In this document: one piece after another, positions 17,671 to 35,044 of the stretch | Numbering within the stretch: the stretch's first letter is position 1 | How the letters are laid out: each line of letters starts with the position of its first letter | From: Candidatus Rokuibacteriota bacterium | GTDB lineage: Bacteria > Methylomirabilota > Methylomirabilia > Rokubacteriales > CSP1-6 | NCBI GenBank assembly: GCA_003221615.1 | Contig: QHSQ01000105.1 | Span: forward strand, 1-43,212 | DNA: 43,212 bases | Direction of reading: 5' to 3' | Notes under the pieces: model-generated | Database searches by the model: none | What the model saw: only the letters and a program-made list of their open reading frames with translations | Told to the model about the DNA's origin: nothing | Position numbers and translations under genes: made by a program

Positions 17671-19389
17671 TCAGAACAAAAAATACCGCTGGGCCATCGG
17701 CAACACCCGCGCCGGCTCGCACGTCAGCACCGTGCCGTCCGCGCGCACCTGATACGTCTCGGGATCGACCTCGATCCGCGGCAGCGCGTCGTTGTGAATC
17801 ATGTCGCGCTTGCTGAGCCCACGGCAGCGACTCACCGCGACCGCGCGCCGGCTGAGACCGAGCCGCTGCGGAACCCCATCGGCGAGCGCCGCCGCCGAGA
17901 CGAACGTCAGCGCGGTGGAGCCGACGGCCCGGCCGAGCGCGCCGAACATCGGACGATAAAGGACGGGCTGAGGCGTCGGGATCGACGCGTTCGGATCGCC
18001 CATCGCCGCCCAGGCGATGAGGCCCCCCTTGACCACCATCTCAGGCTTGACCCCGAAGAATGCGGGCTTCCAGAGCACGAGATCGGCCAGCTTGCCCGCC
18101 TCGACCGAGCCGACATGGCCGGCCAGGCCGTGGGCGATCGCCGGGTTGATCGTGTACTTCGCAACGTAGCGCTTCACCCGCCGGTTGTCGTCGCCCGCCG
18201 TCTCCCCCGGCAGCGGCCCGCGCTGGCGCTTCATCTTGTCCGCGGTCTGCCAGGTTCGGATGATCACCTCGCCGATGCGGCCCATCGCCTGCGAGTCCGA
18301 GGACATCATGCTGATCGCGCCCAGATCGTGCAGCACGTCCTCGGCGGCGATCGTCTCGGCGCGGATGCGCGACTCGGCGAAGGCGAGGTCCTCCGGGATG
18401 CGCGCGCTGAGGTGGTGACACACCATCAGCATGTCGAGGTGCTCGTCCATCGTGTTCACCGTGAACGGCATCGTCGGATTCGTGGAGGACGGCAGGCAGT
18501 TCGGCTCGCCGCACACGCGGATGATGTCCGGGGCGTGACCGCCGCCGGCACCCTCGGTGTGGTACGTGTGGATCGTCCGGCCCTTGAAGGCGCGGATCGA
18601 GTCCTCGACGAACCCGCTCTCGTTGAGCGTGTCGGTGTGGATCGCCACCTGCACGTCGAGCTCGTCGGCGACACCGAGCGCGCAGTCGATCGCCGCCGGC
18701 GTCGTGCCCCAGTCTTCGTGCAGCTTGAGCCCGATCGCGCCGGCCGCGATCTGCTCGCGCAGCGGATCGGGCGCGGAGGCGTTGCCCTTGCCGAGGAAGC
18801 CGAGGTTGAGCGGAAACGCCTCGGCCGCCTCGAGCATGCGGGAGATGTTCCAGGCGCCCGCGGTGCACGTCGTCGCGTTGGTCCCCGTCGCGGGGCCGGT
18901 GCCGCCGCCGACCAGGGTCGTGAGCCCGGCGCTGATCGCCTCGTCGACGAGCTGGGGGCAGATGAAGTGGATGTGCGAGTCGAGCCCGCCGGCGGTGACG
19001 ATCTTCCCCTCGCCCGCGATCACCTCCGTCGACGCGCCGACCACCATGCCCTCGGTGACGCCGGTCATCAGGTCGGGATTGCCGGCCTTGCCGACCGCGA
19101 CGACCCGCCCGTCCCGGATCCCGATGTCGGCCTTCACGATGCCCCAGTGATCGACGATGACCGCGTTGGTGATCACGAGATCGAGCGCGCCCGACGCCCG
19201 CGTGGCGCGGACCGACTGGCCCATGCCGTCCCGGATCACCTTGCCGCCGCCGAACTTCGCCTCTTCGCCCGCCGTCGTGAGATCGCGCTCGACCCGGATG
19301 AACAGCTCCGTGTCGGCCAGACGCACTCGGTCGCCCGTCGTCGGCCCGTAGAGATCGGCGTACTGCCGGCGGGTCAGGCGGAGCGTCAT
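17671..19389 (-). CDS. ureC: Urease alpha subunit UreC
   Basis: 572 residues from the ATG at 19389, which overlaps the ureB stop (ATGA). All active-site residues can be placed: His139 and His141 (DSHIHF), the carbamylated Lys222 (GLKLHEDWG), His251 (VAIHTD), His277 (YHTEG) and Asp365 (SSDSQAMG), each five residues later than in Klebsiella urease. The flap Cys324-His (MVCHHLS) is present. Urease hydrolyses urea to ammonia and carbamate at a bi-nickel centre in the cytoplasm. Together with UrtABCDE uptake it supplies ammonia to the glnA/amt system encoded 10 kb away. The separate small A and B subunits give the common three-subunit bacterial type. Confidence 0.97.
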
Positions 19390-22681: not shown

Positions 22682-24332
22682 TGCGCCCCCGCGTCGCGAA
22701 GAGCCCGGCCGGCCGCCGCTGCAAGAACAGGATGACGCCGACGAGGATTGCCACCTTGCCGAACACCGCGCCGAGCGCGGGCTCGATGCCCTTGGTCAGG
22801 CTGCCGAGGCCGGCCGAGGCCAGGATCGTCCCGGCGAGCTTGCCGACGCCGCCGGTGACGACCACCATGAACGAGTCCACGATGTAGTTCTGGCCGAGCG
22901 ACGGGCCGACGTTGCCGATCTGGGTGAGCGCGCAGCCCGCCAGCCCCGCGAGCCCGGCGCCGAAGGCGAACGTGGTCGCGTCGACCACGCCCGCGCGCAC
23001 GCCCAGGCACGAGCTCATCGCGCGGTTCTGGGTTACCGCGCGGATGCGGAGACCCGCGCTGGTCCGGAAGAGCAGCCAGTACATCGCGGCGACCGACACC
23101 GCGGCGAGCCCGATGATGAAGACGCGGTTGTACGGCAAGGTGAGCCCGACCATCACGGGAACGCCGCCCGAGAGCCACGAAGGCGAGCTCACGTCCACGT
23201 TCGCCGCGCCGAACCAGAGCCGCAGGCCCTGCTGGATGATGAGCGAGGCGCCCCACGTCAAGAGCAGCGTCTCCAGCGGCCGCCCGTAGAGCAACCGGAT
23301 CACGCCCCGCTCGAGGACCAGGCCGACGGCCGCCGCCACCAGGAAGGAGACCGGCAGCGCCACCAGGAAGTAGGTGTCGAAGTACGCCGGCCACGTCGCG
23401 CGAAACCAGTTCTGGACGACAAACGTCGCGTAGGCGCCGAGCGCCATCAGCTCGCCGTGCGCCATGTTGATCACGCCCATCAGCCCGAACACGACGGCGA
23501 GGCCGAGCGCCATCAGGAGGAGGATCGACCCGAGCGAGGCGCCCTGAAACAGGGTCTCGACCGTACGCGTCAAGAGACCCCAGCGCTCGATGCGCCGTAT
23601 CGCCGACACGGCCGCGTCGCGCTCGGCCGGGGTGGCCCCGGTATCGACGGCCAGCCGCTGGAGCGCCGACACCGCGCTCTCCGAGTGGAGCTCGCCGAGG
23701 GTCCGGGCGGCCACGGCTCGCTGAGACGGCGAGCCGTTGGCCAGCTGGATCAGCGCCAGCGCCTCGGCCAGGGCGTGGTGCACCCAGCGGTCGGATTCTT
23801 TCTTGAGCGCCGCTTCGACGACGGGTGCCGCGCCGGCCGCGGCCTGATTGCCGAGCTTCACGGCGGCTCCGCGTCGCACGCCGGGATCGGGATCGGCAAG
23901 CTGCGCCTGGGTCTCGTCGGCGTCGAGAAACGGCTTGATCACGAGACGGAGGCGGCGGTCGGCCGGGACTTCCTTCAGGTCCGTCAGCGGCACGGTGCCG
24001 AGCGGCTCGCGGTCGTAGGCGCCGGCGATGTCGATGACGTCTTGATCGCCCTTCGTGGCTTTGGTGCCGCCGATCACGAGCTCGGTCTTCCCGGCGCGCG
24101 TGCGCGCGTACACGCTGCCGTCGCGGAGCGCGCTCAGGAACTGAACCCACTTCGGATCGCGCGTCTGGCCTAGCGTCGTGACGGCCGCTTCGCGTTTGTC
24201 GGCGTCGTCGCCGGTGAGATCCGCCAGCGCCCGCGCGATCTCCGCGGGCGGCTCGGCGGCGGCCGCGTGGCCCGCCGTTCCTGCGGCGAGCCACGCGACC
24301 AGCGAAAGGAGTACGGTGAGACGAGAGATCAC
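22668..24332 (-). CDS. urtB: Urea ABC transporter permease UrtB with N-terminal repeat domain
   Basis: 554 residues from a GTG at 24332 that overlaps the urtA stop (GTGA). The first 25 residues form a signal-like segment (LLSLVAWLAAGTAGHA), followed by about 220 residues with HEAT-like alpha repeats (KREAAVTTLG, GVRRGAAVKLGNQAAAG, AVAARTLGELHSE), as in the long form of UrtB. The C-terminal part is a LivH-type permease (GLMGVINMAHGELMALGAYA, NRAMSSCLGVRAG). The large extracytoplasmic repeat domain is usual for UrtB and may contact the binding protein. It forms the urea channel with UrtC. Confidence 0.94.
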   Translation of the reverse strand: MISRLTVLLSLVAWLAAGTAGHAAAAEPPAEIARALADLTGDDADKREAAVTTLGQTRDPKWVQFLSALRDGSVYARTRAGKTELVIGGTKATKGDQDVIDIAGAYDREPLGTVPLTDLKEVPADRRLRLVIKPFLDADETQAQLADPDPGVRRGAAVKLGNQAAAGAAPVVEAALKKESDRWVHHALAEALALIQLANGSPSQRAVAARTLGELHSESAVSALQRLAVDTGATPAERDAAVSAIRRIERWGLLTRTVETLFQGASLGSILLLMALGLAVVFGLMGVINMAHGELMALGAYATFVVQNWFRATWPAYFDTYFLVALPVSFLVAAAVGLVLERGVIRLLYGRPLETLLLTWGASLIIQQGLRLWFGAANVDVSSPSWLSGGVPVMVGLTLPYNRVFIIGLAAVSVAAMYWLLFRTSAGLRIRAVTQNRAMSSCLGVRAGVVDATTFAFGAGLAGLAGCALTQIGNVGPSLGQNYIVDSFMVVVTGGVGKLAGTILASAGLGSLTKGIEPALGAVFGKVAILVGVILFLQRRPAGLFATRGRNAEA

Positions 24333-25621
24333 GCCTTCTTCTGATACGTGCCCTGGTGCTTGACCCAGTCGCAACCCTTGTCCGGGCTCGTGTACTTGCT
24401 CCACGGCTCGGGCTCGACCAGACCCTTGGTGCGCGAGATGATCTTGAACTGACCGTCCTTCAGGATCTCGCCGATGAGCACCGGCCGATAGGTGTGCTGG
24501 TTGTATTCGTGCATCTTGATCGTGCCGCTCGGCGCCGCGAACGTCTGGCCGTAGACGGCCTTGCGGACCGGATCGACGTCGAAGCTCTTGGCTTTCTCGA
24601 CCGCCTGCTTCCACACGTAGACGCCGAAGTAGGCCGCCTCCATCGGATCGTCGGTGACGCGCTTGTCACCACCGGGCAGGTTCGCCTTCTTCGCGTATGC
24701 CTTGAAGGCCTGTACGAACTTCTTGTTGTTCGCGGCTTCGACCGACTGGAAGTAGTTCCACGCCGCGAGATGGCCGACGAGGGCCGAGGTGTCCATGCCG
24801 CGCAGCTCGTCCTCGGCGACGCTGTACGCCATGATCGGCGCGTTCTCCGAGCGCAGACCCTGGTTGGCGAATTCCTTGTAGAACGGCACGTTCGAGTCGC
24901 CGTTGATCGTCGACAGCACGCAGGCGCTGCCGCCGGACGAGAAGCGTTTGATCTTGCCGACGATCGTCTGGTAGTCCTGATGGTTGAACGGCGTGTATTC
25001 CTCGGCGATGTTGTCGGCCGGCACACCCTTGGCGACCAGGAACGCGCGCAGGATCTTGTTCGCGGTACGCGGGAACACGTAGTCCGTCCCCAGCAGGTAG
25101 AACTTCTTGAATCCGCCGCCTTCTTTCGACATCAGGTACTCCGCGCCGGGGATCAGCTGCTGGTTCGGCGTCGCGCCCGTGTAGAACACGTTCTTGGAGC
25201 ACTCTTCGCCTTCGTACTGCACGGGGTAGAAGAGCAAGCCGTTGTTGTTCTCGAACACCGGGAGGACCGACTTGCGGCTGACCGAGGTCCAGCACCCGAA
25301 GACCACCGCCACCTTGTCCTGGAGCAGGAGCTGCTTGGCCTTCTCGGCGAACAGGTCCCAGTTCGACGCCGGGTCGACGACGACCGGCGTGATCTTCTTG
25401 CCCATGACGCCGCCCTTGGCGTTGATCTCCTCGGCCGCCATGAGCACGACGTCTCGGAGCGAGACCTCGCTGATGGCCATCGTGCCCGAGAGCGAATGCA
25501 GGACGCCGATCTTGACGGTCTCCTGCGCTCTCAGCACGTTGGGGAAGCTGAGGCCCGCGCCGACCGCCGTGGACGCCAGCAGTCCCCCTTTGATGAAGTC
25601 GCGACGTGAGTACTGCGCCAT
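24329..25621 (-). CDS. urtA: Urea ABC transporter substrate-binding protein UrtA
   Basis: 430 residues from the ATG at 25621, which has a GGAG ribosome site and begins directly at a twin-arginine signal (SRRDFIKGGLLASTAV, then cleavage near LRA-QE). The mature protein has the UrtA pattern VKIGVLHSLSGTMAISE, VVVDPASNWDLFAEKA, GCWTSVSRKSVLPVFE and LLFYPVQYEGEE. It binds urea (or short amides) in the periplasm and delivers it to UrtBC. The Tat signal means it is probably folded before export. It is the first gene of a 12-gene operon; a sigma-54 promoter candidate lies about 90 bases upstream. Confidence 0.96.
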   Translation of the reverse strand: MAQYSRRDFIKGGLLASTAVGAGLSFPNVLRAQETVKIGVLHSLSGTMAISEVSLRDVVLMAAEEINAKGGVMGKKITPVVVDPASNWDLFAEKAKQLLLQDKVAVVFGCWTSVSRKSVLPVFENNNGLLFYPVQYEGEECSKNVFYTGATPNQQLIPGAEYLMSKEGGGFKKFYLLGTDYVFPRTANKILRAFLVAKGVPADNIAEEYTPFNHQDYQTIVGKIKRFSSGGSACVLSTINGDSNVPFYKEFANQGLRSENAPIMAYSVAEDELRGMDTSALVGHLAAWNYFQSVEAANNKKFVQAFKAYAKKANLPGGDKRVTDDPMEAAYFGVYVWKQAVEKAKSFDVDPVRKAVYGQTFAAPSGTIKMHEYNQHTYRPVLIGEILKDGQFKIISRTKGLVEPEPWSKYTSPDKGCDWVKHQGTYQKKA

Positions 25622-25711
25622 TTCCGTCTCCTTTCGTGTGGGTGGTCTCGGTCGCGACGTCATTGGCGCGCCTCCCGCGGACGTCTCTGGCCGCAGGCTG
25701 GCCTCGGTAGC

Positions 25712-25727
25712 AGCAAAGGCCGTACCG
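25712..25727 (-). promoter_or_regulatory. Candidate sigma-54 promoter of the urt-ure operon
   Basis: Read on the minus strand, CGGTACGGCCTTTGCT has exact GG-N10-GC spacing and a perfect TTGCT, matching 10 of 12 informative positions of the -24/-12 consensus. The predicted start near 25701 leaves an 80-base leader before urtA. A 17-bp dyad shared with the glnB promoter lies upstream at 25781-25797. Together these suggest nitrogen-responsive control by an NtrC-type activator. Confidence 0.55.
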
Positions 25728-25780
25728 GAACCGCTATGTGTTTCTTTTTGGGATGTTGGGGCTCAGTGAGGTCGGGAGGT

Positions 25781-25797
25781 TGCTCAATGCGTAGGCA
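25781..25797. promoter_or_regulatory. Candidate enhancer (NtrC-type) site upstream of urtA
   Basis: TGCTCAATGCGTAGGCA matches TGCCCAACGAATAGGCA (31939-31955, upstream of glnB) at 13 of 17 positions and in the same orientation to its promoter. The centre is about 88 bp before the predicted start site. It overlaps the last codons of the ANTAR regulator gene. The length and outer TGC/GCA dyad recall NtrC sites. Confidence 0.5.
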
Positions 25798-26413
25798 CGT
25801 CCGAGGCGACTGACTCCGACACGAGCAGAGCCTTGGCGATCTCGACCATGGGACGGCGGCTGTCCATCGCCGCCCGGCGGAGACGGTGAAACGCTTCCTC
25901 TTCGCTGAGATGGTAGCGCGCCATCAGTCGTCCCTTCGCGCGCTCGATGATCTTCCGCTCTTCGAGCGAGCGACGCAGGTCCCGCGTCTCGCTGAATCGG
26001 GCGACCGCCAGGTCGAGCACAGGGGCCAGCTCCGCCGAGCGAAGCGGCTTGAGAAGGTAGGACATCACGCCGGCCGAGCGTGCCCGATCGACGAGCTCCT
26101 GGCGTGTGTGGCTGGTGAAGAGCACGACGGGACACCCGCCCTCGATCAGCTGCCGCGCCACCTCGACGCCGTCGCCGTCCGGGAGCCCGACGGCGCAGAC
26201 GGCAACGTCCGGGCTCGTGCGACGCATCAGAGCGGCCGCGTCCGCGCACCGCACGGCCTCGCCGACCACCTCGCCGCCCGCCGCCCAGATCGCGGCGCGA
26301 AGCGCCGCGCGCGAGCGCTCGTGATCGTCGAGAATCGCGACCCGCCAGCGCGGGTCGGGCTTCGGCCCCTCGCTCGCCATGCGCGAAGGCATCGCAAGCG
26401 CAGTGCCAGGCAC
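25784..26413 (-). CDS. ANTAR-domain response regulator (antiterminator type)
   Basis: Up to 209 residues from a GTG at 26413; ATGs at 26392 and 26380 are alternatives, and the receiver starts only near WRVAILDDHERS. The receiver lacks the usual phosphorylated Asp pattern: the strand reads VAVCAVGLPDGDG, with Ala where Asp is normal. The C-terminal ANTAR domain is clear (ERKIIERAKGRLMARYHLSEEEAFHRLRRAAMD, split by my reading). ANTAR proteins such as AmiR and NasR bind twin hairpins in nascent RNA and prevent termination, often in nitrogen operons. Its position just upstream of urtA on the same strand suggests it controls the urt-ure leader. Confidence 0.88.
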   Translation of the reverse strand: MPGTALAMPSRMASEGPKPDPRWRVAILDDHERSRAALRAAIWAAGGEVVGEAVRCADAAALMRRTSPDVAVCAVGLPDGDGVEVARQLIEGGCPVVLFTSHTRQELVDRARSAGVMSYLLKPLRSAELAPVLDLAVARFSETRDLRRSLEERKIIERAKGRLMARYHLSEEEAFHRLRRAAMDSRRPMVEIAKALLVSESVASDVPTH

Positions 26414-31850: not shown

Positions 31851-31866
31851 AGCAACCCCCATGCCC
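31851..31866 (-). promoter_or_regulatory. Sigma-54 promoter of glnB-amt-glnA
   Basis: On the minus strand GGGCATGGGGGTTGCT matches 11 of 12 informative positions of TGGCAYRNNNNTTGCW with exact GG-N10-GC spacing. The predicted start near 31840 gives a 17-base leader holding the GGGAGG ribosome site. glnB/glnK-amt operons are classic sigma-54/NtrC targets. Confidence 0.7.
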
Positions 31867-33520: not shown

Positions 33521-35044
33521 TCACGCGCCGGCGCTCGGCCCGCGCGCGGGATCGGGTGCGGGCTCGAGTGGAAGACGGGCCTGGACGCGGGTGCCTTCGC
33601 CCACGCGGCTCGAGACGGCGAGCTCGCCGGCGTGCAGGTTGACGACCGAGCGGGCGATCGACATGCCGAGGCCGGTACCGTCCGGCTTGGTCGTGAAAAA
33701 CAGGTCGAAGGCCCGCGAGAGCGTTTCCTCTGTCATGCCCGGTCCCGTGTCCTCGATGGTCACCGTCACCGTCCCGGTCGCCGCCGAGTATGCCGTGGCG
33801 ACCGTCAGCCGGCCCGCGCCTTCGAGCGCCTCCAGCGCGTTCAGGATCAGGTTCAGGAAGGCCTTCTTCAGCTCGCGTGCGTCGAGACGGCCCTCGGGGC
33901 AGGACGGGTCATAGGCCGTGACGATGTCGACGCCCTCGGTCGGCCGGCGGGCGCGCGCCAGCTCCAGGCACTCGTCGAGCAGCGGGTGCAGCGCCGTCGG
34001 CACGCGATGGAGCTCGGGCGGACGTCCGAACGCGGTGATCTCGGCGACGACGCTCGCCAGATGGTCCACCGTGACCGCGATCTTGCCGGCCAGATCCTTC
34101 CCCGCGGCATCCTCGACCTTGGAGAGGTGCTGCTCGAGGTGGCGCACGTAGAGCCGTAAGCCGGCCAGCGGGTTCTTCACCTCGTGGGCGACCTGCGTCG
34201 CCATGCGTCCGAGCGCCGCGACGGCGCCGCTCTTGAGGCTCTCGAGGTCGTGCGTGTTGCGGATCGCGATCGCCGCTTGCGAAGAGAACAGCGCGAGGAG
34301 CTCGAGGTCGTCCTCCCCCGGCTCGAGGCGCGCCGCAGTCTCGATCACCAGGGCACCGGCCGGGCCGCGCTGGACGACGAGCGGCGCGGCGACGATCGTG
34401 CCGCTGTCAGCGCCGTCGGCCACGCCCGACGTGGTGATCGGCATCCCTTTGTCCATCGCCGCCGAGGCCGCCGCCTCGAGTCGCGCCCACGCCGGAGGCG
34501 GCGACCCGGCGCTCGCCATCGGCACGAGACGGCCCTGCTCGAGCTGGAACACCACGCAACGATCCGCGTCGGTCGCCTCGACGGTGGCTTGAGCCACGGA
34601 GTCCAGCACGCGGGCCATGATGCCGGATGACGCGAGGGCCTGCCCCACCGTCAGGAGCCGCTCGCGGTCGCGCGCCCAGCGGCGCGTCGCCAGGGTGCGC
34701 GCGATCTTCGAGCGAAGCTCGTCGCGCACGAACGGCTTGGTGAGATAGTCGAAGGCGCCGCGACGGACCGCCTCGACGGCGGTCTGGATCGTGCCGTGCG
34801 CCGTCATGATCAGCACGGGGAGGCGCGGCTGGCGCTCGTGGAGCCCTTCCATGAGGCGCATGCCGTCCGTCGGCTCCATGCGCAGATCGAGCAAGGCGAG
34901 GTCGAAGCGGGACGCCTCGGTCGCTTCGAGAGCCTTGCGCGGGTCGCTGGTGGCGATGACCTCGAACCCCATCGCGGTGAGGCGCATCTCCAGCACCTCG
35001 AGGATCGCCGCGTCGTCGTCGACCACGAGGACCTTCTGCTTCAC
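33521..35044 (-). CDS. Receiver-GAF-histidine kinase hybrid
   Basis: 507 residues from a GTG at 35044. The N-terminal receiver is complete (VVDDD, Asp53 in LALLDLRMEPTDG, Lys103 in YLTKPF). A GAF domain covers about 130-262. The kinase follows: His287 in QVAHEVKNPLAG, N box AFLNLILNALEAL, DTGPGMTEE, and GTGLGMSIARSVV. There is no membrane segment, so it is cytoplasmic; the GAF domain may bind a small ligand. The receiver could accept phosphate from the membrane kinase encoded upstream, and the kinase could pass it to the NtrC-like regulator downstream, giving a relay. The HEVKNPLAGLR box is of the NtrB type. Confidence 0.9.
   Translation of the reverse strand: MKQKVLVVDDDAAILEVLEMRLTAMGFEVIATSDPRKALEATEASRFDLALLDLRMEPTDGMRLMEGLHERQPRLPVLIMTAHGTIQTAVEAVRRGAFDYLTKPFVRDELRSKIARTLATRRWARDRERLLTVGQALASSGIMARVLDSVAQATVEATDADRCVVFQLEQGRLVPMASAGSPPPAWARLEAAASAAMDKGMPITTSGVADGADSGTIVAAPLVVQRGPAGALVIETAARLEPGEDDLELLALFSSQAAIAIRNTHDLESLKSGAVAALGRMATQVAHEVKNPLAGLRLYVRHLEQHLSKVEDAAGKDLAGKIAVTVDHLASVVAEITAFGRPPELHRVPTALHPLLDECLELARARRPTEGVDIVTAYDPSCPEGRLDARELKKAFLNLILNALEALEGAGRLTVATAYSAATGTVTVTIEDTGPGMTEETLSRAFDLFFTTKPDGTGLGMSIARSVVNLHAGELAVSSRVGEGTRVQARLPLEPAPDPARGPSAGA

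Follow-up and report, generated by a model that had tools for sequence, protein, structure and literature searches.

Control of a nitrogen operon by both the Ntr system and an ANTAR protein is known for the nas genes of Klebsiella (PMC5424462). In Klebsiella oxytoca, the nasF operon has a nitrogen-limitation promoter followed by a P1-P2 leader on which an ANTAR protein acts, a layout similar to that of the urt genes described here (PMC5424462, PMC7496416, PMC3369936). The motif obtained by SELEX for this protein, NasR, consists of C-G closing pairs and loops with A at position 1 and G at position 4 (A1/G4), as found in the urtA leader. In Enterococcus, EutV likewise combines a receiver with an ANTAR domain and recognizes, in front of eutP, twin hexaloops of the A1/G4 type with C-G closure (PMC3369931). 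The rule that each loop is closed by a C-G pair derives from the NasR SELEX motif and from EutV mutants. The two eutP loops (A29 and A53) are 24 nt apart, the same distance as in the leader studied here (PMC3369931). Urea transporters were listed by Ramesh et al. among the genes downstream of ANTAR hits, some of the hits being devoid of terminators (PMC3369931), and sigma-54 sites were predicted before ANTAR genes of beta- and gamma-proteobacteria (PMC12316311). These statements hold for the parts of the sources drawn on here. Since both observations on urea transporters and sigma-54 sites are already published, the idea of such control is itself not new. What is added here is the anatomy, the lineage and the missing terminator.

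The urt locus and its sigma-54 promoters

The window (the whole stretch of 43,212 nucleotides from a Candidatus Rokuibacteriota bacterium that was analyzed) carries on its minus strand an ANTAR response-regulator gene, followed after a gap of 162 nt by urtA and then by urtB, urtC, urtD and urtE. NCBIfam matches were obtained for UrtB, UrtC and UrtE. Upstream on the same strand are located glnA, amtB, glnK (P-II), an NtrC-like activator gene and a gene for a histidine kinase with its own receiver. glnK is the first gene of glnK-amtB-glnA, an Ntr-type locus. P-II was assigned by Pfam, whereas glnA, amtB and urtD were named by eye from the translations. The kinase beside the NtrC-like gene (33521-35044, minus strand) is NtrB-like and has an odd make-up of receiver, GAF, HisKA and HATPase domains. 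The genome contains a single ANTAR gene and one copy of rpoN. On the plus strand, Rfam RF02514 (5' ureB sRNA) matches at 18941-19234 with 51 bits (gathering threshold 40), which presumably reflects sequence in common with the urease gene.

24329-25621, minus strand: urtA, urea-binding protein with Tat signal (SRRDFIK); NCBIfam TIGR03407 above cut-off, start-motif scan
25628-25632, minus strand: Shine-Dalgarno AGGAG of urtA; read from the sequence, GAAAGGAG kept in alignment A5
25712-25727, minus strand: sigma-54 (-24/-12) promoter of urtA, CGGTACGGCCTTTGCT; consensus scan, conserved in 36 of 42 leaders
25784-26380, minus strand: response regulator ending in an ANTAR domain, with the ATG at 26380 taken as start; Pfam PF03861, E 2.8e-22
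26393-26408, minus strand: sigma-54 site of the ANTAR gene, TGGCACTGCGCTTGCG; consensus scan, predicted +1 at 26382
31851-31866, minus strand: sigma-54 site of glnK (P-II); consensus scan

For scoring we used TGGCACGNNNNTTGCW, which we take to be the sigma-54 consensus. The 16-mer in front of urtA has the form GG-N10-GC with 10 matches to this consensus, and lies exactly where a sequence-only reading of the locus had placed a sigma-54 match, on the minus strand between the ANTAR gene and urtA. Only three minus-strand sites in the 43-kb window score at least 10, all of them before nitrogen genes (glnK, the ANTAR gene and urtA); the plus strand also has three sites scoring 10. An equally good site was found in 3 of 2000 shuffles of the 162-nt intergenic stretch. 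The GG-N10-GC element stands in a TGGCAC/TTGC context, is conserved in relatives and belongs to a genome with RpoN. The +1 was placed 12 nt after the GC of the -12 element, at 25701, and the resulting leader of 80 nt up to the ATG at 25621 agrees with the length read previously.

Among the ANTAR genes examined, 38 of 41 have a sigma-54 consensus 41-66 nt before the conserved WRV codons, and for one of the three others just 2 nt of upstream sequence were available. In the window the predicted +1 of this gene (26382) lies two bases before the ATG at 26380. Therefore, the GTG start in the list of open reading frames is probably wrong. This position suggests that ANTAR-gene mRNAs are nearly leaderless; the short distance from sigma-54 start to ATG recurs in relatives. 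With an NtrC-type palindrome and up to three mismatches, the window has 29 matches against a chance mean of 20.6, and no site was picked out near urtA (25.6-26.5 kb).

Twin hexaloop hairpins in the leader and in relatives

25622-25701, minus strand: urtA leader RNA, predicted +1 to the base before the ATG; placed from the sigma-54 site
25674-25697, minus strand: hairpin P1, CCTGCGGCC[AGAGAC]GTCCGCGGG; leader fold, match of model R1, aligned in 23 leaders
25653-25670, minus strand: hairpin P2, CGCGCC[AATGAC]GTCGCG; leader fold, match of model R1, aligned in 23 leaders

P1 and P2 were first seen in the fold of 25622-25701. The P1 hexaloop (25683-25688) has A1 at +14, G4, a C-G closing pair and a C.U mismatch beneath it. 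The P2 hexaloop (25659-25664) has A1 at +38, G4, a C-G closing pair and again a C.U mismatch, and the spacing of the two loops is 24 nt. The leader therefore holds two tandem hairpins of at least 3 bp with 6-nt loops carrying A1 and G4 (AGAGAC and AAUGAC). The sequence-only reading had seen no convincing twin hexaloop by eye and had offered one weak stem, GGCC-AGCCTGC-GGCC at 25690-25704. The sequence does contain this stem, with its second GGCC belonging to P1, but the stem is not conserved as a hairpin and was rejected as the motif. Overall, the folding energy of the leader is not unusual (z +0.45), and Rfam gave no match for it at the gathering level or at E <=1. The P2 loop also holds an ATG (25661-25663, minus strand) that is preceded by an SD-like GGGAGG and is in frame with urtA, 42 nt ahead of its start. 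An ATG in this frame, at 42 or 45 nt, recurs in genomes G014, G015 and G016. This ATG is a possible second start hidden by P2.

For comparison, a family set of 57 genomes was used, in 42 of which PF03861 was found. UrtA was identified by TIGR03407 in 41 genomes, 39 over cut-off and two (G017 and G027) with the gene cut by contig ends. Together with the paralogue G032b, which is below cut-off, these genomes gave 42 leaders; G048, with a partial UrtA lacking the start, was left out, and G039 offers just 69 nt of upstream sequence. At least one hairpin with an A1/G4 hexaloop occurs in 41 of the 42 leaders (shuffles: mean 7.2, maximum 13), while eight other loop patterns occur in 0-17. Two non-overlapping A1/G4 hexaloops were found in 23 leaders (shuffles: mean 0.5, maximum 3). 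A sigma-54 site scoring at least 9 is present in 35 leaders (shuffles: mean 0.5, maximum 3), the promoter being conserved in 36 overall.

In the 36 promoter-bearing leaders, C-G-closed loops are concentrated at +11 to +20 and again at +33 to +39, and a few lie elsewhere. A P1 loop at +10 to +20 is seen in 31 (shuffle mean 0.36) and a P2 loop at +33 to +42 in 25 (shuffle mean 0.34). Both loops are in register in 21 leaders (shuffle mean 0.015), and where both were found their spacing is mostly 22-25 nt. The urtA 5' UTR ranges from 64 to 190 nt among the leaders. As its length varies while the loops keep their distance to +1, the element is tied to the transcription start and not to the start codon. 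G015 falls out of the register set because its P1 loop, AAGAGC, has no G4. P1 is imperfect in G017 and G053, as is P2 in G026; G032 and G033 have P1 only, G031 has no qualifying loop, and other arrangements occur in G021, G023, G024, G025, G028, G034, G035 and G047. In the genus of G031, G032 and G033 the urtA leader is very short, and no more than one hexaloop hairpin stands where it is expected. In these three genomes (loci L029, L017 and L032, respectively) a Fis-like helix-turn-helix frame follows the ANTAR gene.

From the stretches listed 3' of 45 ANTAR genes, 23 P1-P2 elements were aligned. They form group A (the genus of the window and near kin), with C-Y mismatches beneath the closing pair, and group B, in which P1 is GGAC[AACG..]GUCC, as in eutP. 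The closing pair is C-G in 23 of 23 leaders for P1 and in 22 of 23 for P2. In this alignment 79.6% of cells pair, compared to 27-51% for slid structures, and 14 cells show a double change, compared to 6.4 after shuffling, a level that none of 500 shuffles attained. Counted by pairs instead of cells, double changes in the 23 leaders are not above shuffles (135 of 500), and P1-P2 covariation within group A alone is not significant.

In the consensus that RNAalifold derived from the mixed alignment, P1 was in the wrong place, so the structure for the covariance model (R1) was set by hand, and the model leans towards that structure as a result. R1 was built from the 23 leaders, including that of the window. 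In the window's own 7.2-Mb genome it finds this leader with E 7e-7, the next best match having E 0.14. Over 95 genomes of the class it gave 27 matches with E <=0.003, of which 26 lie upstream of urtA and one (G038:C53) away from it. The 26 comprise 23 training rows and three leaders outside the training set, G029, G047 and G038:C146. In G029 promoter and hairpins stay with urtA, the ANTAR gene being on a different contig. Outside the family, no match with E <0.08 was obtained in these 95 genomes. Weak matches at L077-L080, which are not upstream of urtA, were rejected as chance. A covariance-model search of relatives' urtA leaders had been proposed along with the sequence-only reading, and it recovers conserved twin hairpins. 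Neither of the two findings named there as speaking against it, a lack of conserved hairpins or a start site downstream of the leader, was made.

Regulator and transporter also occur together. An ANTAR gene is present in 39 of 41 genomes with UrtA versus 3 of 16 genomes devoid of it (p 2e-8, from a table drawn up by hand). UrtA occurs with no ANTAR gene found in G039 and G053, the latter having the hairpin motif; an ANTAR gene but no UrtA is found in G030, G051 and G052. In G052 and G051 (loci L036 and L040) the ANTAR genes are of the Ala type with a sigma-54 site, and the next gene is DUF47/PhoU-type by eye.

The proposal that sigma-54 and an ANTAR protein act together on the urt genes is strongly supported by this comparison (promoter in 35 of 42 leaders, hexaloop in 41, two hexaloops in 23, fixed spacing). 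Judged from sequence, two controls, sigma-54 and an RNA-binding ANTAR protein, very likely act on the operon, which probably needs both signals to be switched on.

Mode of action of the leader

Antitermination, the second half of the earlier proposal, is not supported for the leader of the window, in which no intrinsic U-tract terminator was found. Hairpins with at least 4 U in a 9-nt tail occur in 8 of the 42 leaders, several of them spanning the start codon, and more than 5 U occur in G047 only. Here the hairpin shares the loop and 3' arm of P2 and is followed by U5GU3, the one clear U-tract terminator overlapping P2 among the 42 leaders. A similar arrangement was seen by eye at L125, a distant Ala-type ANTAR locus of the Deltaproteobacteria MAG nzgw178. 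The ANTAR stop at 799 is followed there by a hairpin with the hexaloop AGCGCT and by a GC hairpin plus T6, together resembling a classical attenuator. G047 and L125 suggest that the ancestral form may have been a usual attenuator. In the window, an ANTAR protein on P1-P2 might still block a U-tract-less or Rho-dependent stop in the leader or early urtA. Such antitermination is the mode of every characterised RR/NIT-ANTAR target in the parts of the literature covered, mycobacteria apart (PMC3369931, PMC3369936), and hairpins at a fixed distance from +1 instead of from the start codon would suit it. We regard classical antitermination as a serious possibility that falls somewhat short of an even chance.

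A second way of closing the leader is offered by pairing with the start of urtA itself.

25651-25663, minus strand: P2 loop and 3' arm, leader side of a possible competing helix; partner 25593-25605
25593-25605, minus strand: Tat-motif codons (RRDF-I) of urtA, coding side of this possible helix; predicted pairing

In the predicted free structure of group A, the P2 loop and 3' arm pair with the Tat-motif codons of urtA, and in that of group B, P1 pairs with the SD-AUG region. The group A helix has 12 pairs, with 94.7% of cells paired in 11 leaders. Two pairs show double changes (U-A to C-G), and the covariation score of the helix was reached by 5 of 500 shuffles. Leaders folded with the start region omitted mostly keep both hairpins. 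P2 of group A has a mean of 0.65 alone, 0.04 with the native start region, 0.29 with a shuffled one and 0.21 with that of the other group; the values for P1 of group B are 0.42, 0.00, 0.38 and 0.44, respectively. Native pairs of leader and start region are only slightly better than swapped ones (p 0.056 and 0.14). No signal came from a test of the longest pairing run between leader and coding sequence, runs of 8 bp being common in shuffles. Forcing P1-P2 does not generally open the SD-AUG region: over 20 leaders the mean goes from 0.44 to 0.45, with a rise in 5 and a fall in 7, and for the leader of the window itself the value drops from 0.72 to 0.44. The Tat motif is present at the UrtA start in 40 of 42 cases, and its codons are conserved for the Tat signal anyway. 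Within double control, the pairing of a hairpin arm with the urtA start region in place of a terminator is, in our view, the likeliest single mechanism, although these folding results are suggestive only and we would not bet on it at even terms. Registration to the promoter and not to the start codon fits an effect on early elongation at least as well.

Binding might also have the opposite effect and hide the start site, thereby lowering urt expression, as is known for ANTAR proteins in mycobacteria (PMC8164766, in the part drawn on). The in-frame ATG in the P2 loop 42-45 nt upstream (G000, G014, G015 and G016), preceded in G000 and G014 by the SD-like GGGAGG, could serve such repression. However, with about 20 nt between the end of P2 and the SD, the main start stays accessible in the bound form, the distance from P2 to the ATG varies widely, and the sigma-54 control common to regulator and target suggests activation. 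Translational repression is therefore unlikely. The repeats at +13 and +37 could also be read as DNA sites of a DNA-binding regulator that are registered to the promoter, since a fixed promoter distance is usual for operators. The conserved letters lie in the loops and closing pair while the arms vary, loop rules and spacing match known ANTAR RNAs, the linked regulator is of an RNA-binding type, and G008, G010, G038 and G056 keep such hairpins with no sigma-54 site in front, all of which makes DNA sites very improbable. That sigma-54 acts alone and the hairpins are chance products is hardly credible: stable hairpins are common in such GC-rich DNA and the folding energy is ordinary, but loop-specific enrichment (41 of 42 against 0-17), fixed positions and matches outside the training set contradict it.

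The ANTAR regulator and its possible signal

The receiver of the ANTAR protein in the window has Ala at the phospho-acceptor position, as in 18 of 18 proteins of alignment A4 and, read by eye, in 43 of 45 ANTAR rows. The two rows with Asp (L044 and L045) are second ANTAR genes not linked to urt. Named relatives numbered at least 592, and of the best 80 among them 77 carry Asp instead. With Ala at this position, phosphorylation is unlikely to be the switch, and a receiver devoid of the usual phospho-residue would be expected, like AmiR, to take its signal from a partner or ligand. No gene for an AmiC/NasS-like cytoplasmic partner was found beside the ANTAR gene. Peripla_BP_5 has 43 matches in the genome, exported and cytoplasmic proteins counted together. 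Among proteins of solved structure, only four urea-transporter-like binding proteins rank above AmiC (1pea, E 3e-42) as relatives of UrtA. AmiR (1qo0) matches the regulator family of the window only weakly.

Double control by sigma-54 and ANTAR would work as two locks in series. Under nitrogen limitation the sigma-54 promoter would fire, presumably opened by the NtrC-type activator encoded nearby. The nascent leader would fold at once into the twin-hexaloop ANTAR target (loops at +14 and +38). Both loops may be gripped by a dimer of the ANTAR regulator, the product of the adjacent upstream gene, as comparison with EutV and NasR suggests. Binding might break the pairing between hairpin arm and urtA start, freeing translation initiation, a step for which the foldings are suggestive only. 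Since a separate sigma-54 promoter precedes the ANTAR gene, the arrangement would amount to a feed-forward AND gate.

A more far-reaching proposal is that the whole of this Rokubacteria-type family controls urea uptake by an ANTAR mechanism in which no terminator takes part. Twin hairpins at a fixed distance downstream of the sigma-54 start would be bound by an ANTAR protein with a pseudo-receiver, which would flip the leader off the urtA start region and activate translation. The signal would be UrtA, a relative of AmiC and a Tat-exported protein, in its folded form and still in the cytoplasm. Taken as a whole this is a speculative and rather improbable scheme. If true, the leader RNA would be informed of urea by the receptor of the very transporter to which it belongs.

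Comparison with known systems

No paper was found that joins ANTAR with urtA regulation or with the Rokubacteria-type lineage, which is weak evidence of novelty as most subscription journals were outside the search. The only paper found with both ANTAR and urtA, PMC5424462, mentions urt genes, in the part drawn on, as nitrate-induced. The present locus is a case from an uncultured soil-type lineage in which an ANTAR target appears to be kept by selection in register with a sigma-54 promoter, the usual terminator being absent. It makes a mode of ANTAR action distinct from antitermination open to experiment. It also leads to the prediction that these bacteria take up urea only when two nitrogen signals are present.

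NasR senses nitrate by a NIT domain and the nasF leader has an intrinsic terminator, whereas the receiver of the urt regulator is degenerate and the urtA leader showed no terminator. EutV dimerises on phosphorylation and acts on a terminator; the regulator of the window has Ala as phospho-acceptor, and its loops lie 15 nt nearer to +1 than those of eutP. Pseudomonas AmiR is likewise an ANTAR protein with a non-phosphorylated pseudo-receiver (PMC3369936, in the part drawn on). Unlike AmiC-AmiR, the regulator of the window has no adjoining AmiC-like gene, and UrtA carries a Tat export signal. The NasT-NasS system of Paracoccus and Azotobacter differs, in the parts of the sources drawn on, by a gene for the sensor NasS beside the regulator and by responding to nitrate instead of urea. 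In these bacteria, as in the urt locus, the regulator gene is located just upstream of its nitrogen-acquisition target, and the gene for NasT is under Ntr control, as is presumed for the ANTAR gene of the window. NasT, like the regulator of the window, is a receiver-ANTAR protein of the RNA-binding type.
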